A program made the translations under genes and the position numbers. Source: an uncultured Eubacterium sp. (GTDB lineage Bacteria > Bacillota > Clostridia > Lachnospirales > Lachnospiraceae). From it: a stretch of 64,000 nt of DNA. Within the stretch, counting starts at the first letter, position 1. The number at the start of each line of letters is the position of its first letter. The stretch covers positions 1 through 64,000 of the forward strand of contig CAMUHY010000017.1 of assembly GCA_947088865.1 (NCBI GenBank), written 5' to 3'. Below, piece by piece: positions 8,026 to 59,317 of this stretch. A model generated the notes under the pieces. That model was not told where the DNA came from and made no database searches. It saw only the letters and a list, made by a program, of their open reading frames with translations.

Positions 8026-8049
8026 GTGTGAAAAATAAATTTTTCACAC
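8026..8049 (+). repeat. Family G hairpin (copy 1)
   Basis: A perfect 10-bp inverted repeat, GTGTGAAAAA / TTTTTCACAC with loop TAAA. An almost identical hairpin occurs at 59283-59308. Here it stands immediately before a family A leader and may act as the rsmI terminator. Confidence 0.6.
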
Positions 8050-8052
8050 AGC

Positions 8053-8134
8053 ACTTTGTGTCTGCACGTTGCTTGACACAAAGTTACTAAAAGAATCTAA
8101 AGATTCTTGCACAAAAAGCAGCGCAGAAATGAGG
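8053..8134 (+). promoter_or_regulatory. Family A pseudoknot leader (copy A1), upstream of nfo
   Basis: Stem 1 is ACTTTGTGTC (8053-8062) with GACACAAAGT (8075-8084). Its loop segment CGTTGCTT (8067-8074) is complementary to AAGCAGCG (8116-8123), 8 bp with one GU, giving an H-type pseudoknot. A third hairpin AGAATCT/AGATTCT lies between. The pairing ends a few nucleotides before the GAGG ribosome site (8131-8134). See copies at 20592, 41373, 44612, 53478 and 55771. Confidence 0.7.
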
Positions 8135-20591: not shown

Positions 20592-20672
20592 CAAGATTTG
20601 TGTCTGTGTGCTGCTTGTCACAAACTTGTAAAAACATTTTATTTGTTGGGCAAAAGCAGTGCAGAAATGAGG
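20592..20672 (+). promoter_or_regulatory. Family A pseudoknot leader (copy A2), upstream of the MMPL gene
   Basis: Stem 1 ACAAG-a-TTTGTG with CACAAACTTGT; loop TGTGCTGCTT (20607-20616) complementary over 10 bp (two GU) to AAGCAGTGCA (20654-20663). GAGG (20669-20672) follows 5 nt later and the ATG is 7 nt beyond. It lies about 85 nt downstream of the mapped -10 and so is transcribed. Confidence 0.7.
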
Positions 20673-29627: not shown

Positions 29628-30566
29628 ATGGACAATATAAGGATAACAAATACCCCTTATGATGATGTATTTCGTACATTACTGAATGATTGTAGTTCAT
29701 TGATTATTCCTGTAATCAATGAAATATTTGGAGAGAATTACTCTGGAAAAGAGGAGATTATTTTCTCGCCAAATGAACATTTTTTGAATCAGCAGGGCGG
29801 AAATGAGGATGCACGAATTACGGACTCAAGTTTTAAAATATTGGGAAAAGAAACAAAAAAGTATCATTTGGAATGCCAAAGTAGTGCAGATAACAGTATG
29901 TTAATTCGATTCTTTGAATATGATACACAGATTGCTCTTGATGAAGGAGAAATAAAAGGTAATGTTCTCACTGTGACATTACCACATTCTGCTGTATTGT
30001 TTTTGCGGTATAACGCATCTACACCAGATAAGTTAAAAATTAGGATGGTTACACCAGGTGGAACGATAGAATATGATGTATTAGTAATGAAATCACAACA
30101 ATATACAATAAATGAAATTTTTGAGAAGAATTTGCTGTTGTTAATTCCTTTCTATATCTTTTCTCATGAAAAACGATTTGATGAATATGAAAAAGATGAA
30201 ATAAAACTAAGGGTATTGCAAAAAGAATATGAACAAATTAAAAATAAATTGGAGAAACTTTTACATCAGGGAACTATTAGCGAATATACAAGATGCACGA
30301 TTATTGATATGTCTAATAAGGTATTAGAACATATTGCAATGAAATATAACTCTGTCAAGGAAGGAGTGAAATCTGTTATGGGTGGAAAAATTCTGGAATA
30401 TGAGGCAAAAACTATAAAAAAAGAAGGTATAGAACAAGGTATAGAACAAGGTATTAAGGGAACCGTTTCCATATTGAAGAATTTAGGGATTCCCAAGCAA
30501 ACAATTTTGATTAAAATTCAGGAGCAGTATAATTTAAGTTTGGAAGATTCCAAAAAATATCTGTAA
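29628..30566 (+). CDS. Rpn family recombination-promoting nuclease / transposase-like protein
   Basis: A 312-aa protein of the Rpn/PD-(D/E)XK group (formerly 'transposase_31'/PDDEXK-like families). The N-terminal TPYDDVFRTLLND and the acidic core EDARITDSSF...YHLECQSS match the nuclease motif Asp-x(n)-Glu-x-Gln. The C-terminus has the short degenerate repeat GIEQGIEQGIKG, which is common in the family. Such proteins are abundant in gut Firmicutes; RecA-independent recombination has been shown for E. coli RpnA. AAGGAAAAG precedes ATG 29628. A family B element follows directly downstream. Confidence 0.78.
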   Translation: MDNIRITNTPYDDVFRTLLNDCSSLIIPVINEIFGENYSGKEEIIFSPNEHFLNQQGGNEDARITDSSFKILGKETKKYHLECQSSADNSMLIRFFEYDTQIALDEGEIKGNVLTVTLPHSAVLFLRYNASTPDKLKIRMVTPGGTIEYDVLVMKSQQYTINEIFEKNLLLLIPFYIFSHEKRFDEYEKDEIKLRVLQKEYEQIKNKLEKLLHQGTISEYTRCTIIDMSNKVLEHIAMKYNSVKEGVKSVMGGKILEYEAKTIKKEGIEQGIEQGIKGTVSILKNLGIPKQTILIKIQEQYNLSLEDSKKYL

Positions 30567-41372: not shown

Positions 41373-41436
41373 CAAGTTTGTGTCTGTGCGTTGCTTGACA
41401 AAAGCTTGTTTTAGTTAAAAGTAACGCAGAAATGGA
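41373..41436 (+). promoter_or_regulatory. Family A pseudoknot leader (copy A3), upstream of the amylase gene
   Basis: Stem 1 CAAGTTTGTGTC with GACAAAAGCTTG (11 of 12 paired). Loop TGCGTTGCTT (41387-41396) is complementary over 10 bp to AAGTAACGCA (41419-41428). Compared with other copies a C-G has become T-A in the loop pairing, and pairing is kept. Purine-rich GGAGAAGG follows before the ATG at 41445. Confidence 0.72.
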
Positions 41437-41444
41437 GAAGGAAA

Positions 41445-44611: not shown

Positions 44612-44710
44612 TGGTATCTGAGTGCTGTTTTTATAATTGGTATCTAAGTGTTATTTTCATAAACGGGTAAAAATTTTTAATTTTTTGTGCAAAAAATAGT
44701 ACAGAAATGA
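44612..44710 (+). promoter_or_regulatory. Family A leader, diverged copy (A4), upstream of the HAD gene
   Basis: Two tandem copies of ATTGGTATCTRAGTG (44613 and 44637 regions) replace stem 1, which is no longer well paired. Loop-equivalent GTGTTATTT (44648-44656) remains complementary to AAATAGTAC (44694-44702), 9 bp with two GU, followed by AGAAATGAGG as in other copies. Confidence 0.5.
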
Positions 44711-44718
44711 GGTTAAAA

Positions 44719-47300: not shown

Positions 47301-47419
47301 TTTTTCCTCATTTCTGTTCCATTTTTTTGCATCAATAATTAAATGATATATAAATATTATTGCAAAATTTTATGATATTTGTCAATATTATTTCTTTTAA
47401 ACTATAAAATAAAAAAGAG

Positions 47420-53477: not shown

Positions 53478-53550
53478 TCCTCATTTCTGCGCCGCTTATT
53501 GTGCAAAAATTTTTACAGGTTTGTGACAAGCAGCGCACAGACACAAACCT
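53478..53550 (-). promoter_or_regulatory. Family A pseudoknot leader (copy A5), upstream of the CAP-domain gene
   Basis: Minus strand: stem 1 AGGTTTGTG with CACAAACCT (53550-53517); loop TGCGCTGCTT (53537-53528) complementary over 10 bp to AAGCGGCGCA (53497-53488); then GAAATGAGG and the ATG at 53473. The outer stem base pairs AGG/CCT differ from CAAG/CTTG in other copies, and pairing is kept. Confidence 0.72.
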
Positions 53551-53682
53551 TAAACGCGGTAATCGAGAAACTATGATATATACATAAATATATTATACTG
53601 GAGGATTTTAATATGAACAAGTACATTTATGAGGAAAATAATGGTTTTTGATTTGTTTTCTATACGCTCTGACGCGGTGCTG

Positions 53683-55756: not shown

Positions 55757-55770
55757 TGATTTGTCAATAA

Positions 55771-55857
55771 TTTGTGTCTGTGCGTTGCTTGACACAAAGT
55801 TATAAAAACAAAATTTTTTATTTTGTTTTTTGTGCAAAAAGCAGCGCAGAAATGAGG
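55771..55857 (+). promoter_or_regulatory. Family A pseudoknot leader (copy A6), upstream of the acetyltransferase
   Basis: Stem 1 TTTGTGTC (55771-55778) with GACACAAA (55791-55798). Loop TGCGTTGCTT (55781-55790) is complementary over 10 bp (one GU) to AAGCAGCGCA (55839-55848). A middle hairpin AAAACAAAA/TTTTGTTTT lies between, and GAGG (55853-55856) follows. Confidence 0.72.
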
Positions 55858-55863
55858 ATTTAT

Positions 55864-56298
55864 ATGATTCGAGAGGTTACGGGTGATGATTTTACAGGAT
55901 TGATGACGTTATATATGCAGCTGCATAATAATGATATGCCAAAAGAAACCAATGATATAAAACAGTTATGGAAACAAATTCTTGACGATAAAGCGCATCA
56001 TATTATTGTGGCTGAAGAAGATGGACAAATTGTTTCTTCTTGTGTATGTGTTATTATTCCCAATTTAACACATAATCAACAGCCTTATGCTTTTATTGAA
56101 AATGTTATTACAGATAAGGAACATAGGGGGAGAGGTTTAGCAACCCAATGCTTAAATTATGCTAAAAATATAGCAATGAAAGAAAACTGTTATAAATTAA
56201 TGTTGCTTACAGGTTCTAAAAAAGATAGCACATTAAATTTTTACCGTCATGCAGGATATAACAGTGAAGATAAAACGGCATTTATTCAGTGGATATAA
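55864..56298 (+). CDS. GNAT family N-acetyltransferase
   Basis: A 144-aa acyl-CoA-dependent acetyltransferase. The acetyl-CoA-binding motif A is ENVITDKEHRGRGLATQCL (Arg/Gly-rich loop HRGRGLA), and motif B ends in FYRHAGY. Substrate cannot be told. ATG 55864 follows GAGG by 7 nt and starts directly on the conserved IREVTGDDF strand; longer frames read through the leader. It is a single gene. Confidence 0.88.
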   Translation: MIREVTGDDFTGLMTLYMQLHNNDMPKETNDIKQLWKQILDDKAHHIIVAEEDGQIVSSCVCVIIPNLTHNQQPYAFIENVITDKEHRGRGLATQCLNYAKNIAMKENCYKLMLLTGSKKDSTLNFYRHAGYNSEDKTAFIQWI

Positions 56299-58141: not shown

Positions 58142-59212
58142 CTATTTATTTTTATGGCAGCTTTCAATTAATTCCATAATTTTGTTAATAGCATCACTTT
58201 GAGGGCTTGCCGCCATTGCATTAATATAAGTTTGGCTGTTAGCATACAATTCGTTGATTGCATTGAGGAGTTTTTCAGGAGTGATTTCTTCTTCTTGCAT
58301 CACTTCTGAATAACCATGTTCTTTAAATGACTTTGCATTGAGTATCTGGTCGCCTCTGCTGGCATTAGCCGAAAGAGGAATAAGCAAATTGGGTTTTTTG
58401 AGCGCTAATAATTCGCAGATTGCATTAGCGCCAGCTCTTGAAACCACAATATCACACATAGCGAACAAGTCGCGAAGACGTGTGCCAACATACTCAAATT
58501 GTACATAGTCTGGAGTTTTGTCAAGATTAGGGTCTGTTTTTCCTTTACCACATATATGGACAACTTGATATTTTTTTAATAGTTTTTGAAGGATACTTTT
58601 TATCGCTTCATTGACCTTGACAGCTCCCGTACTTCCGCCCATTACAAGGATGGTTGGTTTATCAGCAGTAAAGTTGCACATTCGCAAACCTTCTAGTTTA
58701 TTGCCTAAAAGCAGTTCACGGCGTATTGGCGAACCAGTTAAAACGGCTTTTCCATCAGGAAGATATGGAATAGTCTCCGGAAAGTTGCAGCAAATTTTAG
58801 TCGCTTCTCTCATGGCAATTTTGTTGGCAAGACCAGGCGTCATATCCGATTCATGCGTAATGACAGGAATGCCTTTGTGTGCAGCCGCAAGAACCACAGG
58901 AACCGATACAAAACCGCCTTTTGAAAATACAATATCTGGTTTTATTTTTTTCATTAATTTTCGAGATTCACCATAGCCTTTTATCACGCGAAAAGGGTCG
59001 CTTAAATTTTTTAAACTTTTGTATCGTCTCAATTTTCCAGAAGAAATGCCATAGTAAGGAATATTCATTTCTTCAATAAGTTGTTTTTCAATTCCAGTAT
59101 AGGAACCTATATATGTAACTTCATAACCTGCTTTTTTTAAGGCAGGTAAAAGTGCAATATTAGGCGTTACATGTCCAGCAGTACCTCCACCAGTTAAAAT
59201 AATACGTTTCAT
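58142..59212 (-). CDS. murG: UDP-N-acetylglucosamine-N-acetylmuramyl-pentapeptide transferase
   Basis: A 356-aa GT28 enzyme that makes lipid II at the inner face of the membrane. The N-terminal GGGTAGHVTPN, central GGSTGAVKVNE and C-terminal SRAGANAICELLALKKPNLLIPL (in parts: SRAGANAICELLAL) motifs are diagnostic. It stands alone rather than in the dcw cluster, as in several Clostridia. ATG 59212 is used; an ATG at 59224 overlaps the AAAGG site. A hairpin (AACAGC/GCTGTT) lies in the leader. Confidence 0.94.
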   Translation of the reverse strand: MKRIILTGGGTAGHVTPNIALLPALKKAGYEVTYIGSYTGIEKQLIEEMNIPYYGISSGKLRRYKSLKNLSDPFRVIKGYGESRKLMKKIKPDIVFSKGGFVSVPVVLAAAHKGIPVITHESDMTPGLANKIAMREATKICCNFPETIPYLPDGKAVLTGSPIRRELLLGNKLEGLRMCNFTADKPTILVMGGSTGAVKVNEAIKSILQKLLKKYQVVHICGKGKTDPNLDKTPDYVQFEYVGTRLRDLFAMCDIVVSRAGANAICELLALKKPNLLIPLSANASRGDQILNAKSFKEHGYSEVMQEEEITPEKLLNAINELYANSQTYINAMAASPQSDAINKIMELIESCHKNK

Positions 59213-59282
59213 AAGAATAACCATGCCTTTCTATAACCTGCAAATTTAACAGCTTGCTGTTTTATGTACAGGTATAAATCCG

Positions 59283-59308: not shown

Positions 59309-59317
59309 AATTTTTTT

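Follow-up and report, generated by a model that had tools for sequence, protein, structure and literature searches.

Short repeats with a predicted H-type pseudoknot before unrelated Lachnospiraceae genes: signs of a mobile element that lands at ribosome-binding sites

What do six unrelated genes share immediately upstream of their start codons? The stretch of DNA analysed here (the window) comprises 64,000 nucleotides of an uncultured Eubacterium sp. of the Lachnospiraceae. The original prediction listed six similar leaders in it and offered two readings, an uncharacterised cis-acting RNA or a mobile ribosome-site cassette. All six leaders are present where it placed them, and the families that it named downstream are borne out: AP endonuclease (nfo-like), MMPL, alpha-amylase (GH13), HAD, CAP plus dockerin and GNAT. 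The leaders terminate in the tail CAGAAATGAGG (or AGAAATGGAG), with the start codon 5-7 nt further on.

From 5' to 3' the element is made up of a hairpin H0, found in many copies (e.g. GTGTGAAAAAT..ATTTTTCACAC), a stem P1 with the segment S2a in its loop, a linker, the segment S2b, AGAAAT, GAGG and the start codon. P1 is of the TTTGTGTC..GACACAAA type and 6-16 bp long (mostly 8-12), and the linker between P1 and S2b varies from 5 to 94 nt. The predicted S2 helix joins the P1 loop to the segment directly before the extended Shine-Dalgarno (SD) sequence AGAAATGAGG. The copy before the GNAT gene is resolved into its parts below, followed by the other matches in the window.

55767..55857, plus strand: element before the GNAT gene (model E 1.3e-17)
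55771-55778 with 55791-55798, plus strand: predicted P1 of the GNAT-gene element
55782-55790 with 55839-55847, plus strand: predicted S2 of the GNAT-gene element
55848-55857, plus strand: extended SD AGAAATGAGG of the GNAT-gene element
55864..56295, plus strand: downstream GNAT acetyltransferase gene (PF00583)
8026..8049, plus strand: H0 hairpin GTGTGAAAAATAAATTTTTCACAC, left end of the AP endonuclease-gene element (by sequence)
8051..8134, plus strand: element before the AP endonuclease (nfo-like) gene, gene start 8141 (model match)
20593..20672, plus strand: element before the MMPL gene, gene start 20680 (model match)
41373..41437, plus strand: element before the GH13 gene, gene start 41445, with tail AGAAATGGAG and a short linker L3 (model match)
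44650..44712, plus strand: degenerate element without P1 before the HAD phosphatase gene, gene start 44719 (model match)
53479..53551, minus strand: element before the CAP/dockerin gene (model match)
47306..47370, minus strand: weak tail-only match before an ABC ATPase gene (model E 0.0094)

We built a covariance model from 32 copies, all from the window's genome. It matches all six window leaders with E values from 1e-17 to 3e-7; five of them are among the building sequences and match by construction, and the copy at 44650 is the only one outside the building set. This copy, described earlier as starting at 44612 without the initial hairpin, indeed lacks P1 (model match 44650-44712). Allowing up to two mismatches, the window contains 16 occurrences of GCAGAAATGAGG where 5.7 are expected, the largest count in a shuffle being 11.

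The original prediction rested on covariation between the hairpin loop and the downstream segment, and this is upheld for both helices, within the genome and across genera, whether the comparison is with shuffles, with slid partners or with swapped loops. S2 occurs as GCGCAC/GTGCGC, GCACAC/GTGTGC, GCGCTGCC/GGCAGCGC, GCACAGC/GCTGTGC, GCGCGGC/GCCGCGC, GGGCG/CGCTC, GCGTTGCTT/AAGCAGCGC and other variants. We searched 824 kb of the window's genome (400 kb of contig 1 taken unselected, the window, and stretches around matches), where 42 of 132 tail-like sites score at least 35 for loop-to-tail pairing plus stem, compared with none of 2640 shuffles; one of the 42, at window position 29799, sits in coding sequence and is probably a chance match. 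Many tail sites have no scoring pseudoknot, and the length of P1 by itself discriminates weakly (124/195 tail sites vs 262/975 shuffles). In alignment A1, which holds 32 of 37 distinct copies with five divergent ones excluded, 90% of cells pair and both sides vary in 10 of 20 pairs; none of 500 shuffles reaches any of the five measures, and slid partners pair at 34-46%.

Since the A1 sites were picked partly by pairing, exchanging loops and tails between copies is the cleaner test. For this we used 55 of 71 elements, a diverse set drawn from several genera on the basis of P1 sequence and tail: a loop pairs with its own tail at a mean of 17.8, as opposed to 12.4 after swapping, and none of 5000 permutations reaches the observed value. 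Neither this test nor the start-codon count given below involves selection on S2 pairing, though the scan pattern behind the listed loci does fix the loop. P1 was assessed on a multi-genus alignment of 40 sequences (A2; 38 of the 55 swap-test elements and two others), in which 8 of 10 pairs have changes on both sides, a value reached by 2 of 500 shuffles, with the other measures reached by 0-1 of 500. S2 was tested by swapping because the MAFFT alignment A2 leaves the S2 of subfamilies with a different loop offset out of register. Pseudoknots in other genera are predicted at 9 of 20 sites sampled from seven genera, and at others by eye. By sequence, the two interleaved covarying helices would form an H-type pseudoknot.

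The copies are far more numerous than the six first noted, with at least 100 in some Lachnospiraceae species. In the assembly of the window's genome (3.29 Mb, 48 contigs) the exact pattern CAGAAATGAGG-N3-9-ATG occurs 106 times and its reversed control once; the covariance model finds at least 120 matches at E 0.01 among 150 candidates scored. Five other species of the genus have 42, 22, 18, 14 and 5 model matches, and the other 16 species 0-2. Across the family, 109 of 396 genomes contain GCAGAAATGAGG-N4-8-ATG, and a genome of another genus reaches 38 sites; the reversed control gives 9 in all 396 together. An order-level search recovered at least 9 of 294 genomes at E 1e-4; it is insensitive, scoring 15 candidates per genome and showing 15 copies in the window's genome where the full search shows 120, and so gives no clean range limit. 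One locus in another family of the order (L371) has an element with S2 GTACCGCTT/AAGCGGTGC, paired by eye.

Placement at start codons is the rule. In the 824 kb, 85 of 90 exact tails have an ATG 3-10 nt on. A scan of a genome collection for P1 plus loop, in which tail and start codon were not used, returned at least 111 stretches, and the matches listed include Parablautia intestinalis, Acetatifactor, Roseburia sp., Hungatella sp. and Lachnospiraceae bacterium IMSAGC_003. Tail (up to two mismatches allowed) and start codon follow in 105 of all 111 listed copies, the opposite of what transposon ends lying mostly away from start codons would give. In the remaining six, one stretch ends early, an altered purine-rich tail followed by ATG is seen in three, and the last two show the tail but no start within the stretch. 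One smaller set drew 80 of the 111 loci. The element can also recur within a gene cluster: trpC-, trpF- and trpB-like genes (by translation) lie in series at positions 120380-122081 of contig 1 of the window's genome, with a tail before each and P1 before two; read by eye, S2 of the trpF copy contains an A-C mismatch.

Several observations point to mobility and support the reading as a cassette that moves between ribosome-binding sites. In the window's genome, five copies are identical over a 67-nt core, each before a different gene. The copy between its trpC- and trpF-like genes is absent from 19 relatives, one of whose loci has only 23 nt of upstream DNA. In the sister species G006 and G020, whose genes are 90-99% identical, 5 of 29 orthologous site pairs (17 + 10 + 2 from three comparisons) are filled in one and empty in the other, all five coming from this one pair of draft genomes; one further orthologue search matched 2 of 6 G006 sites. 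The net inserts measure 145, 144, 145, 144 and 93 nt. No insert starts more than about 4 nt downstream of the native SD core. On the right of each stand an SD core and then the spacer and ATG of the native site, with slight alterations at most, so that filled sites have an SD core on both sides. In one pair the empty site reads GGAGGATTAGTATG and the filled site GGAGGATTA[..AGAAAT]GAGGATTATTATG.

These differences are probably insertions and not precise losses, as far as a two-species comparison can tell. The empty site already carries AGAAATGAGG in 3 of the five pairs, so an element could also have been lost through recombination between two tails; near-identical copies of one subfamily at several loci favour insertion. 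Such a subfamily ('B') is seen at four loci in G020 and G006 (L203, L209, L144, L192), with GCTATTTG..CAAATAGC and S2 GAGCGA/TCGCTC; its H0 arms differ by paired changes, with most other sequence unchanged.

The flanks tell a similar story about the landing place. An SD-like core is found in the left flank of 78 of 99 non-composite copies, as against 368 of 3600 random 14-mers, and ten further copies sit after the tail of another element. At one locus (L117 of G018) two elements stand in tandem before one gene, the SD of the first directly preceding H0 of the second. Over 8 nt the two flanks agree at 4.5 positions vs 4.0 when permuted (0/5000; 99 copies); the agreement exceeds permutation at 7-9 nt, and at 6 nt it does not (2903/5000). 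Matches of at least 7 of 8 occur in 9 of 99 copies vs 5.6 permuted (432/5000) and perfect ones in 5 of 99; smaller flank sets gave p 0.0025 (27 copies) and 19/2000 (60 of 80 copies used). In one filled/empty pair (B20) the left SD and the target differ. The right-end SD may be a duplication of the target SD, though then an incomplete one, or may be borne by the element.

We propose that short mobile elements of Lachnospiraceae insert between SD core and start codon and that their pseudoknot is kept by selection, which we consider the probable explanation. The element, apparently non-autonomous and 93-145 nt net where measured, would land in the stretch from a gene's SD core to its start codon, leaving the native SD core on its left and placing a second SD core at normal spacing from the start codon. 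With the second core so spaced the host gene keeps a ribosome-binding site, from which it would be translated. The pseudoknot, whose S2 stops 6 nt short of the SD core, may keep the new SD free and insulate it against the native SD, the leader or leader ORF, and upstream ribosomes; such insulation would let insertions be tolerated and spread, with the pseudoknot retained by selection. In unselected stretches a same-strand gene ends at most 200 nt upstream of the SD at 10 of 18 copies, so many copies probably lie inside operons.

A classical cis-regulatory RNA, a riboswitch or protein-binding leader in which a global signal switches the pseudoknot of a large regulon and which spread because it is useful, is an unlikely alternative. 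H-type pseudoknots next to the SD are used by preQ1 and SAM-II riboswitches and by ribosomal-protein leaders, and the structure here is likewise conserved, covarying and constrained. A nested alternative fold could moreover hide the SD: ViennaRNA, which scores no pseudoknots, prefers one in which S2 is kept, P1 is absent and UUUGU pairs with AUGAG of the tail. However, the SD core is open at 0.54 with the pseudoknot imposed, 0.46 in the free fold and 0.41 in shuffled leaders (42 sites), a small effect; the free fold hides the SD no more than shuffles do, and we rejected hiding on this ground. Also against this alternative, the genes downstream are unrelated (trpF-, trpB-, rplT- and recA-like by translation, and those of the window), identical copies and filled/empty sites indicate mobility, and copy number is patchy among species. 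No Rfam 15 family, preQ1, SAM-II, ribosomal-protein leaders and all others included, scores above its gathering threshold at any element. Four sub-threshold hits have E values of 0.025-0.71, and one of them, SSRC38 (E 0.71), apparently overlaps copy L228 from the opposite strand. In sum, the element differs from these leaders in being mobile, in having at least 100 copies before unrelated genes in a single genome and in lacking an Rfam match.

Could the repeat be plain selfish DNA, with hairpins that serve transposition only and an RNA that has no role after insertion? Recent dispersion would fit, as would the existence of internally deleted remnants (B13, B24) and of a G006 copy that is without P1 and S2a and still has its tail. 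This copy (L355), one of the tail sites without a scoring pseudoknot, reads as having lost its 5' part, since its G020 orthologue is complete (B13). We nevertheless regard this explanation as scarcely probable, for diverged copies retain P1 and S2 as pairs, and substitutions at copies common to the two species keep pairing. Of 16 such substitutions in canonical pairs, 12 keep a standard pair, against 31% expected from random substitutions at the same transition rate (binomial p 0.0004). Two more substitutions create a pair and two stay unpaired; with the gained ones counted as breaks the figure is 12/18 (p 0.002). The count comes from eight copies (8 of 17 site pairs, G006 copy score at least 34), with structures defined on the G006 copies, and is a small sample from one species pair. 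The pair-keeping substitutions therefore seem to place the structure under selection after insertion. Together with the covariation of both helices they also support the cis-acting RNA of the original prediction, which may act on translation.

Also unlikely is a leader-peptide or translational-coupling device resembling MIRU, in which the native SD drives a short ORF starting in H0 (GTG, TTG) and so brings ribosomes to the gene: the SD-like cores in the left flanks (78/99), an H0 that often starts with GTG or TTG at SD distance, and the 6 of 18 leader ORFs that continue in frame into the gene all fit it, but the other 12 of 18 stop after 12-42 codons, the covariation fits RNA pairing, and net inserts of both 144 and 145 nt are found.

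MIRU are the nearest analogue of the element as proposed here. The accessible parts of one source describe them as mobile mycobacterial repeats whose insertions fall at start codons and probably affect the gene little, with an internal ORF for which the coupling to the gene is at -4 nt (PMC12548453). Like them, the present element is mobile and inserts at start codons; unlike them, as described there, it has an SD core at its right end, a conserved core that is an RNA pairing, and hosts of another phylum, and its leader ORF varies in length and frame (18 copies). BOX/RUP, REP and MITE, as excerpted accounts have them, are also short, many-copy repeats (PMC3049150, PMC3733652, PMC6382973); in contrast to those descriptions, nearly every copy examined here adjoins a start codon, in one orientation. 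TAACTGA repeats of Beggiatoaceae, of which one genome has 169 direct-repeat sets, resemble the element in their location, since most lie immediately ahead of a start codon, and differ from it in structure: the available text of the source describes heptamers, mostly without an SD, and mentions no pseudoknot (PMC4679880). Searches of open-access full texts turned up no description of the element itself.

How does the element move? A Y1 transposase, as in REP/RAYT (IS200/IS605-like) systems, was considered and rejected, since unlike there it does not follow copy number: 11 of the 16 high-copy genomes have it, as do 8 of the 16 low-copy ones, and PF01797 is absent from G004, G230, G330, G438 and G384 among the high-copy ones, some of which are incomplete drafts. 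No terminal inverted repeat of the kind found in a MITE of a DDE transposon is seen by eye (the ends are GTGTGAAAA.. and ..GCAGAAAT). An autonomous long copy was likewise discarded: 15 of 17 left ends in the 824 kb reach a tail and start within 230 nt, and for the remaining two the distance to a start codon is at most about 110 nt. No copy was found on plasmids, and viral contigs hold no exact match to GCAGCGCAGAAATGAGG-N4-8-ATG. Seventeen phage-labelled faecal records do match (MT836618, which is L376, and 16 more). The label of L376, the sole record examined, looks wrong, as its genes are bacterial and chromosomal (polA, coaE, PTS), and we dropped phage carriage as a vehicle. The fixed right end, the copies lacking a 5' part, the fact that no inverted repeat is seen, the SD-like sequence on both sides and the lack of a Y1 match are compatible with spread through RNA. 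A SINE-like, SD-homing route, in which the pseudoknot RNA docks at ribosome-binding sites and is copied into DNA, is a speculative and rather improbable form of this.

The extended SD AGAAATGAGG is one base off AGAAAGGAGG, itself the reverse complement of CCTCCTTTCT. In 3 of 31 assemblies the latter comes after TGGATCA at a 16S-like 3' end, and TGGATCACCTCCTTTCT is likewise present in 3 of the 31, in both cases all from other families of the order; the 16S 3' end of the window's own genome was looked for in its assembly and not found. We also considered whether CAGAAATGAGG is simply the generic SD of this genome and rejected this, the usual base before GAGG being G outside this motif. Of the 163 GAGG-anchored genes in a set of 346, 21 have CAGAAAT ahead of GAGG.

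Should the proposed explanation hold, the landing site of a mobile element would be the ribosome-binding site itself, with an RNA fold kept after landing, and in common bacteria of the gut translation initiation would be changed for dozens of genes in each species. The copies would amount to naturally replicated insertions of a single RNA device upstream of unrelated genes, and the element could mislead the annotation of start codons and leaders. Finally, at 59309 of the window (minus strand) an H0-like hairpin GTGTGAAAAATAAATTTTTCGCAC precedes the start of a murG-like ORF (58142-59224), without family-A P1 or tail. A similar hairpin is present on contig 1 of the same genome, and the two possibly belong to a further subfamily.
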